A DNA stretch of 64,000 nt. It comes from Rhodonellum psychrophilum GCM71 = DSM 17998. Its GTDB lineage: Bacteria; Bacteroidota; Bacteroidia; Cytophagales; Cyclobacteriaceae. The DNA is taken from positions 124,001 through 188,000 of the forward strand of contig NZ_KB906675.1 in NCBI RefSeq assembly GCF_000381545.1, in the 5' to 3' direction. The first letter of the stretch is position 1. Each line of letters starts with the position of its first letter. Position numbers and translations under genes: made by a program. Positions 5,469 through 53,146 of this stretch are shown here, in pieces. The notes under the pieces were generated by a model that saw only the letters and a list, made by a program, of their open reading frames with translations, searched no databases and was not told the origin of the DNA.

Positions 5469-5502
5469 GAACCGGTAGAAAAAAGCAAAAACTTTATCAA
5501 CC

Positions 5503-5602
5503 ACTCATCTTTTTCCGGCTATTCCGAAAAGGGATTTAGCACCTTGTTTTTTCAGGTTGCTAAGACGTCATAGGGCCCTTCCCTCGGTCTTTCTCGATAA
5601 GT
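5503..5602 (-). promoter_or_regulatory. SAM-I (S-box) riboswitch
   Basis: Read on the minus strand, the leader has the SAM-I core in order: ACTTATC opening the P1 stem (5602-5596), GAGGGAAGGGCCCTATGA, AGCAACC, AAGGTGCTAAATCC, then GATGAGT closing P1 (5509-5503). The seven P1 pairs include one G-U. These are the family's conserved segments with usual spacing. The element sits about 70 bases before the start of the split methionine synthase operon, which is the expected target. A TAnnTTTG promoter box ends six bases before it, so the transcript would begin almost at P1. Confidence 0.9.
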
Positions 5603-5607
5603 AAACT

Positions 5608-50928: not shown

Positions 50929-51327
50929 TTAGGAATCCAGTCCGCCCCTAATCACCGTAGCAATTTCGGCCAATTCCTCTTTCGAAAGCTTCATTTTTGG
51001 TCTTGTGAAATTGATATCATCCATTGTCCTGAGCGGGACAAGGTGGACATGGACATGGGGAACTTCCAATCCAATCACTGCTACCCCAACACGGGTACAT
51101 TTGATGGATTTATCGATCGCCTTTGCTATTTTCTTGGAAAAGACAAAGAGCCCAGCCAATAGATCATCCTCGAGTGCAAAAATATAATCTGTCTCCTTTT
51201 TTGGGACTACCAAAACGTGTCCCTTTACCAAAGGCATGATATCTAAAAATGCAATGTAATTGTCATCCTCAGCAATGATTTCTGCGGGAATTTCTCTGTT
51301 GATGATTTTAGTGAAGAGTGTTGCCAT
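50929..51327 (-). CDS. HIT-family nucleotide hydrolase/transferase
   Basis: A 132-residue histidine-triad protein with the full motif HVHVHLVPL (His91, His93, His95). The N-terminal FTKIINREIPAEI and the GHVLVVPKKE strand are typical of the HINT/PKCI-like group. Such proteins hydrolyse AMP-lysine, AMP-amino acid or dinucleoside polyphosphates. It lies 51 bases downstream of greA on the same strand, without a terminator between, so it is probably the second gene of a greA operon, an arrangement I regard as common in Bacteroidota. Confidence 0.93.
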   Translation of the reverse strand: MATLFTKIINREIPAEIIAEDDNYIAFLDIMPLVKGHVLVVPKKETDYIFALEDDLLAGLFVFSKKIAKAIDKSIKCTRVGVAVIGLEVPHVHVHLVPLRTMDDINFTRPKMKLSKEELAEIATVIRGGLDS

Positions 51328-51378
51328 AGTTACAAAAATAAAAAAATCCCGAGGGAGAAACCATCGGGAAATAAAAAT

Positions 51379-51852
51379 TTAATAATTAATGTCGAGAATC
51401 TCGAATTCCAATTGGCCTGCGGGGGCGTTGATGGTGGCAATGTCGCCTTTGGATTTACCAACGAGACCCATTCCAAATGGAGAAGCCAGAGAAATCTTAC
51501 CTTCCTTCAAGTCGGCTTCTTCCTCAGACACCAAAGTATAACTGACAGTCATCCCGTTTTTCACGTTCTTGATTTTGACAGTACTCAAAATACCAACTTT
51601 AGATGGATCCATTTTGGAATTGTCCAAGATCCTTGCGTTTCCTACCACCTCTTCCAATTTGGCGATTTTAAGTTCCAACAAACCTTGAGCGTCTTTGGCC
51701 GCATCATATTCGGCATTTTCGCTCAAATCACCTTTGTCCCTAGCTTCCGCTATCTGCTTGGAGATATCTTGTCTCCCTTTGGTCTTCAAAGTCAAAAGCT
51801 CATCTTTCAATCTTTTCAGACCCTCCTCAGTGTAATACTGTATTTTTCCCAT
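51379..51852 (-). CDS. greA: Transcription elongation factor GreA
   Basis: A 157-residue protein of exact GreA length. An N-terminal coiled coil (about 1-75, with ARDKGDLSENAEYDAAKDAQ, including the acidic tip residues that enter the RNA polymerase secondary channel) is followed by an FKBP-like C-terminal domain ending LVGKSKGDIATINAPAGQLEFEI. It restarts backtracked polymerase by stimulating RNA cleavage. The start at 51852 is preceded by a leader of about 85 bases that holds a strong terminator-like hairpin, so expression may be attenuated. Confidence 0.97.
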   Translation of the reverse strand: MGKIQYYTEEGLKRLKDELLTLKTKGRQDISKQIAEARDKGDLSENAEYDAAKDAQGLLELKIAKLEEVVGNARILDNSKMDPSKVGILSTVKIKNVKNGMTVSYTLVSEEEADLKEGKISLASPFGMGLVGKSKGDIATINAPAGQLEFEILDINY

Positions 51853-51882
51853 GGTCTATTTTTTTTTACTATGGCTATGAAA

Positions 51883-51912
51883 AATAAAAGAACGGTCTCA
51901 TTGCTGAGACCG
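51883..51912 (-). terminator. Terminator-like hairpin in the greA leader
   Basis: On the minus strand CGGTCTCA-GCAA-TGAGACCG (51912-51893) is a perfect eight-pair stem closed by a GNRA tetraloop. It is followed by TTCTTTTATTTTT. It lies between a promoter-like box and the greA start, about 30 bases before the start codon. It may be an attenuator of greA or the end of an upstream transcript. Confidence 0.7.
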
Positions 51913-51944
51913 CCTTTCATATAGTTCGTTGTATTTATCTATGA

Positions 51945-51975
51945 CAAAGATAAAGGAATAGAAACGATTAAGCAA
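51945..51975 (-). promoter_or_regulatory. Possible greA promoter
   Basis: The minus strand has TATCTTTG (51952-51945), an exact TAnnTTTG match, with TTGC 19 bases upstream (51975-51972) in the -33 position. RNA would start near 51938, before the leader hairpin. Confidence 0.45.
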
Positions 51976-52216: not shown

Positions 52217-53146
52217 TTATTTGAAGGCTTTAACAATTTTGGACACCAGTACTTTATTGATTTTTTCATAGGATTGAAAAGTCCATCCGGCAACATGGGG
52301 AGAGAACATCACATTTTCCCTACTTGCCAATTTTTCGAAAGCAAGGCGTTCAGCAGATGTAAAACTGTTGAATTTCTCATTTTCCAAAACATCCAAAACT
52401 GCTCCTTTCAAAATTCCTCGTTCGAAGCCTTCGTTGATGGTGTCAAAAGAAATGATTTCTCCCCGGGCGGTATTGATCAAGTATATGGGTTTTGCAAATT
52501 GCTCCAAAACCTCAGGGGTGATGAAATTCCTGGTTTCATCGGTGAGTGGCACATGCAAGCTCAAAATATCAGCCTCCCCGACAAGCCGCTTGAAACCAAC
52601 TTCCTCCACATATTCATTTCCAAAACCTTTTTTGTACTTGTCATAGGCCAAAACCAGCACATCGAATCCCCTAAGTTTTCTGGCAAATGACTCGCCCATG
52701 TTCCCATAACCTATGATGCCCACGGTTTTCCCTGCCAATTCCTCTCCCCTATTTTCCTCCCGCTGCCAAATGCCCTTGCGGACCTGTACGTCGGCTTGTG
52801 AAAGATGGTTGAACAAACCAAGCAACATCCCAATGGCATGCTCCCCAACAGCATCCCGATTTCCTTCCGCTGCTGTAAAGAGTTTGATTCCCTTTTTCTC
52901 CAAGTATTCCAAATCGATTTTGTCAAGGCCTGCACCAGCCCTGCCGATAAATTTCAATCCAACCGCTTTCTCCAACAAGGCCTTATCCATCGGCGTCTTG
53001 GATCGGATGATCATGCCTTCATAGTTTCCGATGACTGCTTCTATCTCCTTTCGCGTTATTTCCGGTCTATAATCCACCAAGTGTCCTTCCTTTTCCAATA
53101 AGGAATGGATACTTGGATGCATTTCGTCTATGATGAGAATTTTCAT
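52217..53146 (-). CDS. D-2-hydroxyacid dehydrogenase (phosphoglycerate dehydrogenase-like)
   Basis: A 309-residue NAD-dependent D-2-hydroxyacid dehydrogenase. It has the nucleotide loop GYGNMG at 146-151, substrate/catalytic residues Arg228 in NTARGE, Glu255 in DVLENE and His284 in SPHVAGWT. There is no ACT domain, and the length suits the short SerA form, so 3-phosphoglycerate oxidation to start serine synthesis is likely but other 2-hydroxyacids are possible. It is not next to serC, which would have strengthened the call. The gene lies 89 bases downstream of mgtE on the same strand. Confidence 0.88.
   Translation of the reverse strand: MKILIIDEMHPSIHSLLEKEGHLVDYRPEITRKEIEAVIGNYEGMIIRSKTPMDKALLEKAVGLKFIGRAGAGLDKIDLEYLEKKGIKLFTAAEGNRDAVGEHAIGMLLGLFNHLSQADVQVRKGIWQREENRGEELAGKTVGIIGYGNMGESFARKLRGFDVLVLAYDKYKKGFGNEYVEEVGFKRLVGEADILSLHVPLTDETRNFITPEVLEQFAKPIYLINTARGEIISFDTINEGFERGILKGAVLDVLENEKFNSFTSAERLAFEKLASRENVMFSPHVAGWTFQSYEKINKVLVSKIVKAFK

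Follow-up and report, generated by a model that had tools for sequence, protein, structure and literature searches.

Why should the gene for a transcript cleavage factor be preceded by what looks like a transcription terminator? The question is raised by a 64,000-nucleotide (nt) stretch of the genome of Rhodonellum psychrophilum GCM71 = DSM 17998 (RefSeq assembly GCF_000381545.1, contig NZ_KB906675.1, positions 124,001 to 188,000; referred to below as the window), in which a hairpin followed by a T-rich tract lies between the promoter and the start codon of greA. Judged by sequence, such a terminator-like hairpin is conserved in greA leaders across the sampled members of the phylum Bacteroidota and is specific to this gene. 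The case is wider than one leader and spans the phylum sample. Probably, the hairpin is an intrinsic terminator of greA itself, close to the promoter, that partly attenuates expression of this gene and of the hinT-like gene behind it. In the following, the order is Cytophagales, the class is Bacteroidia, and +1 is counted from the promoter box. The features in question, in window coordinates, are as follows.

51973-51975, minus strand: TTG, a -33-type promoter element, whose two T residues are invariant in an alignment of the window with seven close relatives (alignment A2)
51945-51952, minus strand: TATCTTTG, the -7-type box (TAnnTTTG) of the greA promoter, with TA..TTTG invariant in A2
51853-51940, minus strand: predicted greA 5' leader, 88 nt, with the start deduced from the box
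51891-51914, minus strand: terminator-like hairpin (core, 51893-51912), the top match of the leader model R1 (see below) in the window and in its own genome
51880-51892, minus strand: U-tract TTCTTTTATTTTT, the predicted 3' end of a short RNA according to the T profile of the conserved leaders
51379-51852, minus strand: greA, encoding the transcript cleavage factor GreA (NF001263/TIGR01462, 177.7 bits against a cut-off of 145)

The TTG element and TATCTTTG are separated by a 20-nt spacer and form a promoter of the Bacteroidota type; a sigma-70 scan was unsuited here, as its model does not cover the promoters of this phylum. Because the TAnnTTTG box of Flavobacterium sits at positions -12 to -5 (PMC9723704), transcription of greA is predicted to start at 51940. 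The core stem consists of CGGTCTCA (51912-51905) and TGAGACCG (51900-51893), joined by a GCAA loop (51904-51901), and includes eight perfect pairs, or ten counting two G-U pairs. The hairpin occupies positions +27 to +50 of the predicted leader, with 26 nt preceding it; it ends 38 nt from greA, and 27 bases separate the U-tract from the ATG (51852). This combination of a G+C-rich stem with a T-rich tract immediately after it is that of an intrinsic terminator. The 88-nt leader folds at -21.2 kcal/mol, compared with a mean of -9.3 for shuffled sequences (z = -4.5; none of 200 shuffles equals it), and the fold of the plus strand, opposite to greA, reaches a z of only -1.65. A terminator-pattern scan of both strands over 3 kb, which is weaker evidence alone, finds 7 sites versus 3.4 (standard deviation, 1.9) in shuffled sequence. 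Across the window and its seven close relatives, conservation is concentrated in TTG, the box, the hairpin, and the T tract, with hardly any in the interval between box and hairpin.

The initial annotation, made from the sequence alone, had described a promoter box, an eight-pair stem, a GCAA loop, and a T-rich tract ahead of greA, and the coordinates, the fold, and the conservation confirm this description. A short leader RNA, as it had proposed, is indeed predicted, but with a length of 52 to 61 nt rather than about 50. The loop, highlighted there as a GNRA tetraloop, carries no weight: it is a local trait, and as a candidate functional part it was rejected, since it occurs in only 13 of the 126 leader hairpins of the wider set. 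A comparison of greA leaders across Cytophagales, suggested in the same annotation, finds the hairpin in 51 of 65.

These counts come from a strict test that calls for a stem score of at least 18, at least 6 T in 9 positions, and a hairpin end 12 to 110 nt before the ATG. In this test, 45/59 leaders from the order and 28/29 further leaders from the class carry the hairpin, as against 17 of 249 control genes drawn from 20 stretches of 19 genomes plus the window (Fisher p = 1e-27, treating rows as independent and with phylogeny uncorrected). In these counts, only the control leaders were trimmed at the intergenic gap; when the same trimming is applied to greA leaders, the figures are 44/57 for the order and 27/27 for the class. 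Looser scoring gives 50/59 and 28/29, respectively, versus 27/249. The enlarged sets, based on 160-nt leaders, yield 51/65 for the order, 59/67 for the rest of the class, and 16/20 for other classes of the phylum, with shuffled means of 1.4, 1.3, and 0.4. Within the order, the same strict test finds no such hairpin upstream of rho (0/30) or dnaK (0/29), and the loose one finds 5/30 and 0/29. GreA paralogues have it in 1/18 cases, several of their starts being uncertain; the sole paralogue with a strong terminator-like hairpin is L178, where it lies 77 nt before the start.

The composition of the sets bears on how these counts are read. The class set of 67 comprises 29 of the 30 best-scoring loci, 20 loci picked one per family, and 18 top matches, nine of them from one genus; the 20 loci from other classes were hand-picked, one per family. 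Rows dropped were L062 (no start found), L179 and L180 (paralogues), L266 (dnaK), and the repeats L197 (of L159) and L207 (of L144), and loci L090 to L119 are outside all counts. The trimmed test omits loci with no upstream open reading frame (ORF) or a gap below 60 (L042, L055, L065, and L071); L055, with just 115 nt upstream, is nevertheless counted in the strict 59-leader and enlarged sets.

The hairpin tends to occur together with a promoter box. An exact TAnnTTTG box occurs within 45 nt upstream of the hairpin in 78/126 greA leaders, against 5.15 expected from shuffles, and in 1 of 10 control hairpins. The initial annotation had named a start of greA transcription below the hairpin as fatal to its proposal; judging by the sequence, this appears not to be the case, as the box lies upstream in the window, and one between the hairpin and the ATG is found in only 5/126 leaders. 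Where both hairpin and box are present, the first base of the hairpin falls by +10 in 18/37 leaders of the order, 36/41 of the class, and 2/4 of the other classes (56/82 in total), and for the window and the genomes closest to it, the stem begins at about +17 to +27. The stem is followed by T in 96, 94, 53, 80, 94, 90, and 82% of order leaders at the first seven positions; the share nears the background (36%) after about 13 positions, and the profile resembles that of 17 control terminators.

The RNA preceding the 3' arm is nearly unstructured, with medians of -1.4 (order), 0.0 (class), and -0.2 (other classes) kcal/mol and -1.1 kcal/mol in the window. Folding of the upstream RNA reveals an antiterminator of at least -4 kcal/mol strength that could pair with the 5' arm in 6/82 leaders and none in the remaining 76/82. 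Neither an upstream sensor domain, as in riboswitches, nor a leader ORF is seen in the 26 nt available in the window or in the leaders where the hairpin starts by +10 (56/82), and a start near +1 leaves no room for an aptamer or a leader peptide. In the absence of an upstream antiterminator or aptamer, the choice between termination and read-through would rest with the polymerase and its factors. Searches of the leader against Rfam return no family at the gathering score; matches at E ≤ 1 (idnO, snoR113, STnc50, BTnc231, L20 leader, and P34) are far below it and were taken as chance.

The stem is kept by place more than by sequence, but within the order it tends toward AACGG...CCGTT, and elsewhere different stems occupy the same place. 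greA was found in 59/59 related genomes, and 44 of the 59 leaders taken from them have, no more than 200 nt from the greA start, this motif or a close variant of it followed by a T-rich tail. A looser regular-expression count of 46/59 includes a far upstream match (L049) and a stem that is not AACGG (L048), and the alignment takes the 44 under the narrower rule. In this alignment, the C-G-G and C-G-T-T positions are invariant, partly by construction, because the rows were selected by the motif. The unselected pairs, adjacent to the motif and in the upper stem, covary by most measures: the cells changed on both sides number 32, versus 11.6 in shuffled alignments, and the covariation score is 0.359 versus 0.205, levels that none of 500 shuffles reached. 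Structures slid along the alignment pair far worse than the true stem. AACGG...CCGTT can also be read in each of six order genomes outside the model (L181, L182, L183, L186, L189, and L190).

The model R1, built from the 44 leaders, that of the window included, scores the greA leader at 40 bits, with the next match in the window at 13.7 bits and the next in the whole genome at 25.1 bits (E = 0.44). Given this gap, the idea that the AACGG stem is a general-purpose terminator in its own genome was rejected. The best R1 match is the greA leader in 44/59 genomes (43 that fed the model, plus G028, which did not); it lies elsewhere in 9 genomes, and 6 have none. Among order genomes that did not feed R1, the class search places the best match at greA in 4/5 (G072, G146, G175, and G247, but not G225). 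Scores of order greA leaders (27.6 to 46 bits) overlap those of matches away from greA (up to 37.6 bits), so a single match proves little. R1 also matches 74 class genomes outside the order at E ≤ 0.05 (lowest E, 4.7e-4). The AACGG stem was also rejected as a phylum-wide element: in 58 of these 74 genomes the place of greA is known and holds no match, and the other 16 are uncheckable. Elsewhere in the class, greA leaders show recurring group-specific stems of their own, namely AAATCCCGT or similar with ATGGGATT, and GAGTCCCG with CGGGATTC (L191 to L194, L200, and L202 to L205; L068, L078, L080, and L081).

The closest known counterpart is the greA leader of Escherichia coli, the source of the GraL RNAs (PMC6829880). 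There, too, a hairpin and a U-tract stand between promoter and start codon of the same gene on the same strand, as the initial annotation had anticipated, and neither leader has a large sensor domain. The predicted short RNA of 52 to 61 nt compares with GraL species of 49 to 59 and 37 to 47 nt, and the E. coli MG1655 leader passes the same hairpin test. The distance from hairpin to ATG differs (38 nt here versus about 100 nt in E. coli, by our choice of start), as do the promoter, which is of the Bacteroidota type here, and the stem, which in GraL reads GCTGACCTGGG... Sequence kinship with GraL is thus not apparent, either by reading of the stems or in Rfam, where no family comes near the gathering score at E ≤ 1. 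The unrelated stem had been foreseen, and the arrangement had been called convergent; convergence is one option, and the data agree equally well with a stem that was replaced while its place stayed constant or with descent from an ancient terminator in the greA leader. In E. coli, about one-third of transcripts pass the terminator, GreA appears to amplify termination, and this autocontrol requires a catalytically active protein and the GreA tip (PMC6829880). The window GreA is 40% identical to that of E. coli and has the acidic tip GDLSENAEY; the tip motif GD[LI]xEN is present in 152/152 GreA proteins examined.

In the preferred reading, RNA polymerase would start at about 51940, and the hairpin would be the first structure to form in the RNA. 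At the U-tract, either the short RNA would be released or transcription would read through into greA and hinT, and the read-through fraction would set the level of GreA. Termination in vivo and its partial efficiency are what the sequence leads us to expect. The likeliest input would be GreA itself: from its general properties, it could reverse backtracking at the U-tract pause and return polymerase to a termination-capable register, so that abundant GreA would mean more termination. Such feedback on the greA leader is plausible, if tentative. A more sweeping and rather doubtful proposal is that greA throughout Bacteroidota is under a sensorless attenuator at or near +1 of the greA(-hinT) unit, with read-through set by the action of GreA on early, backtracking-prone polymerase. 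The stem would be swapped between orders, with place and U-tract kept, so that selection would act on a physical test of the state of the polymerase, and the near-fixed AACGG/CCGTT would reflect a second constraint within one order.

Several observations weigh against a greA terminator of this kind. The U-tract TTCTTTTATTTTT is interrupted, 14/65 order leaders fail the strict test (some have weaker or more distant hairpins, and some have none), and for 48/126 hairpins an exact TAnnTTTG is missing within 45 nt. Whole pairs changed on both sides number only 4 versus 3.1, which 56 of 500 shuffles match. The scorer was self-made after the first leaders had been seen, and the rows are related and not randomly drawn. 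The E. coli effect of GreA was not reproduced in vitro, and an additional factor is suspected (PMC6829880). This last point also favors a different input, in which the terminator would sense a nucleotide pool (UTP or the initiating NTP) or another polymerase factor, such as NusA or NusG. Sensing of polymerase speed would be expected to use just such a layout, a bare terminator close to the start and a U-rich site for pausing, and nothing in the sequence itself points to GreA as the signal. Nevertheless, the hairpin accompanies greA and not rho, dnaK, or GreA paralogues, and catalytically active GreA is needed in E. coli, which makes such an input unlikely, if still a serious contender. The location of the hairpin at about +1 in much of the class (by +10 in 36/41 leaders, and in 18/37 of the order) also fits a 5'-terminal stem that shields greA mRNA from decay with little termination. 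This appears improbable, as a protective stem has no need of the strong U-tract that follows directly, as in control terminators, and a stem that begins only at about +17 to +27, as it does in the window and close relatives, leaves many 5' bases unpaired.

The remaining alternative assigns the hairpin to the dehydrogenase gene upstream, either as the 3' terminator of its transcript or as an insulator against read-through, so that nearness to greA would be an accident of spacing. That gene shares the strand of greA (stop at 52217), as does the nearest upstream ORF in 64 of the 86 loci that have one, and two scans of the minus strand between this stop and the hairpin find no other terminator-like hairpin. 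Hence, dehydrogenase read-through transcripts may end here, too. Moreover, in many class genomes, a same-strand upstream gene ends about 80 to 110 nt from greA, and the hairpin could serve both genes. However, the window hairpin lies much closer to greA (38 nt) than to the upstream stop (about 300 nt), and the greA promoter separates it from the latter. It also persists where the nearest upstream ORF (identified with our own ORF caller) is divergent, in 13/18 greA leaders (12/17 when trimmed) versus 1/84 controls (Fisher p = 1e-11, under the same assumption of independent rows); among ordinary leaders with a same-strand upstream gene, 16/165 carry one. Because of this persistence, the hairpin is not merely the terminator of a neighbor, and exclusive service to the dehydrogenase transcript, the other outcome that the initial annotation regarded as damaging, is highly improbable. 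A greA-specific terminator thus remains the preferred reading.

Attenuation in greA leaders is a known kind of control, in print for Proteobacteria, bacilli, and Clostridia. Naville and Gautheret (2010) defined such elements as 5' terminators in the orientation of the gene, within 300 nt of it and at a greater distance from the upstream gene (PMC2965389). The window hairpin is placed accordingly (38 nt versus about 300 nt), and like the greA attenuators of that work, it is close to the greA start and recurs across orthologues (51/65, 59/67, and 16/20 versus 17/249, 0/30, 0/29, and 1/18). Antiterminator structures were reported there for greA leaders, outside the search rule; unlike those, the present leaders belong to Bacteroidota, and 76/82 have no antiterminator. 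The rnk leaders listed in the same work are likewise attenuators of a GreA-family gene, but the paralogues in the order have the hairpin in 1/18 cases. The words "Bacteroidetes," "Bacteroides," and "Cytophaga" are absent from the main text of that paper, its supplement being outside the scope of the search. The Flavobacterium transcriptome paper lists structured leaders, such as that of rimP, and greA does not appear in its main text (PMC9723704). A literature search that left most subscription journals and supplements outside its scope found no greA leader element reported for Bacteroidota. Within the reach of these searches, the bare form widespread in Bacteroidota appears to be new, and its occurrence here suggests that greA attenuation extends beyond the groups for which it has been published. 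GreA governs the rescue of backtracked polymerase, and even for E. coli the control of its level is a live question. A terminator specific to greA and with no visible antiterminator would narrow this question to polymerase, hairpin, and U-tract, and its many natural variants would allow an effect of GreA on intrinsic termination to be examined directly in vitro.

The next gene of the greA transcription unit is the following.

50929-51327, minus strand: HIT-family gene (hinT-like), next in the greA unit

A HIT-type protein, judged by the first residues of the next ORF, follows greA in 55/65 order loci, and in most of these the ORF overlaps the greA stop or begins no more than 15 nt from it, so that a leader terminator would govern both genes. 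In the window, a second terminator-like hairpin (TCCCGA...TCGGGA plus a T run; 51334-51369, minus strand) lies between the two genes, 19 nt before the ATG of the HIT-family gene, which leaves little room for a promoter. This hairpin may reduce hinT relative to greA. A similar one is found between greA and the HIT-type gene in L002, L004 to L007, and L181 to L183, whereas in most of the order the genes nearly touch and have no such hairpin between them. Elsewhere in the window, the sole Rfam match at the gathering score is a SAM riboswitch (RF00162; positions 5502-5603, minus strand, 82.2 bits).
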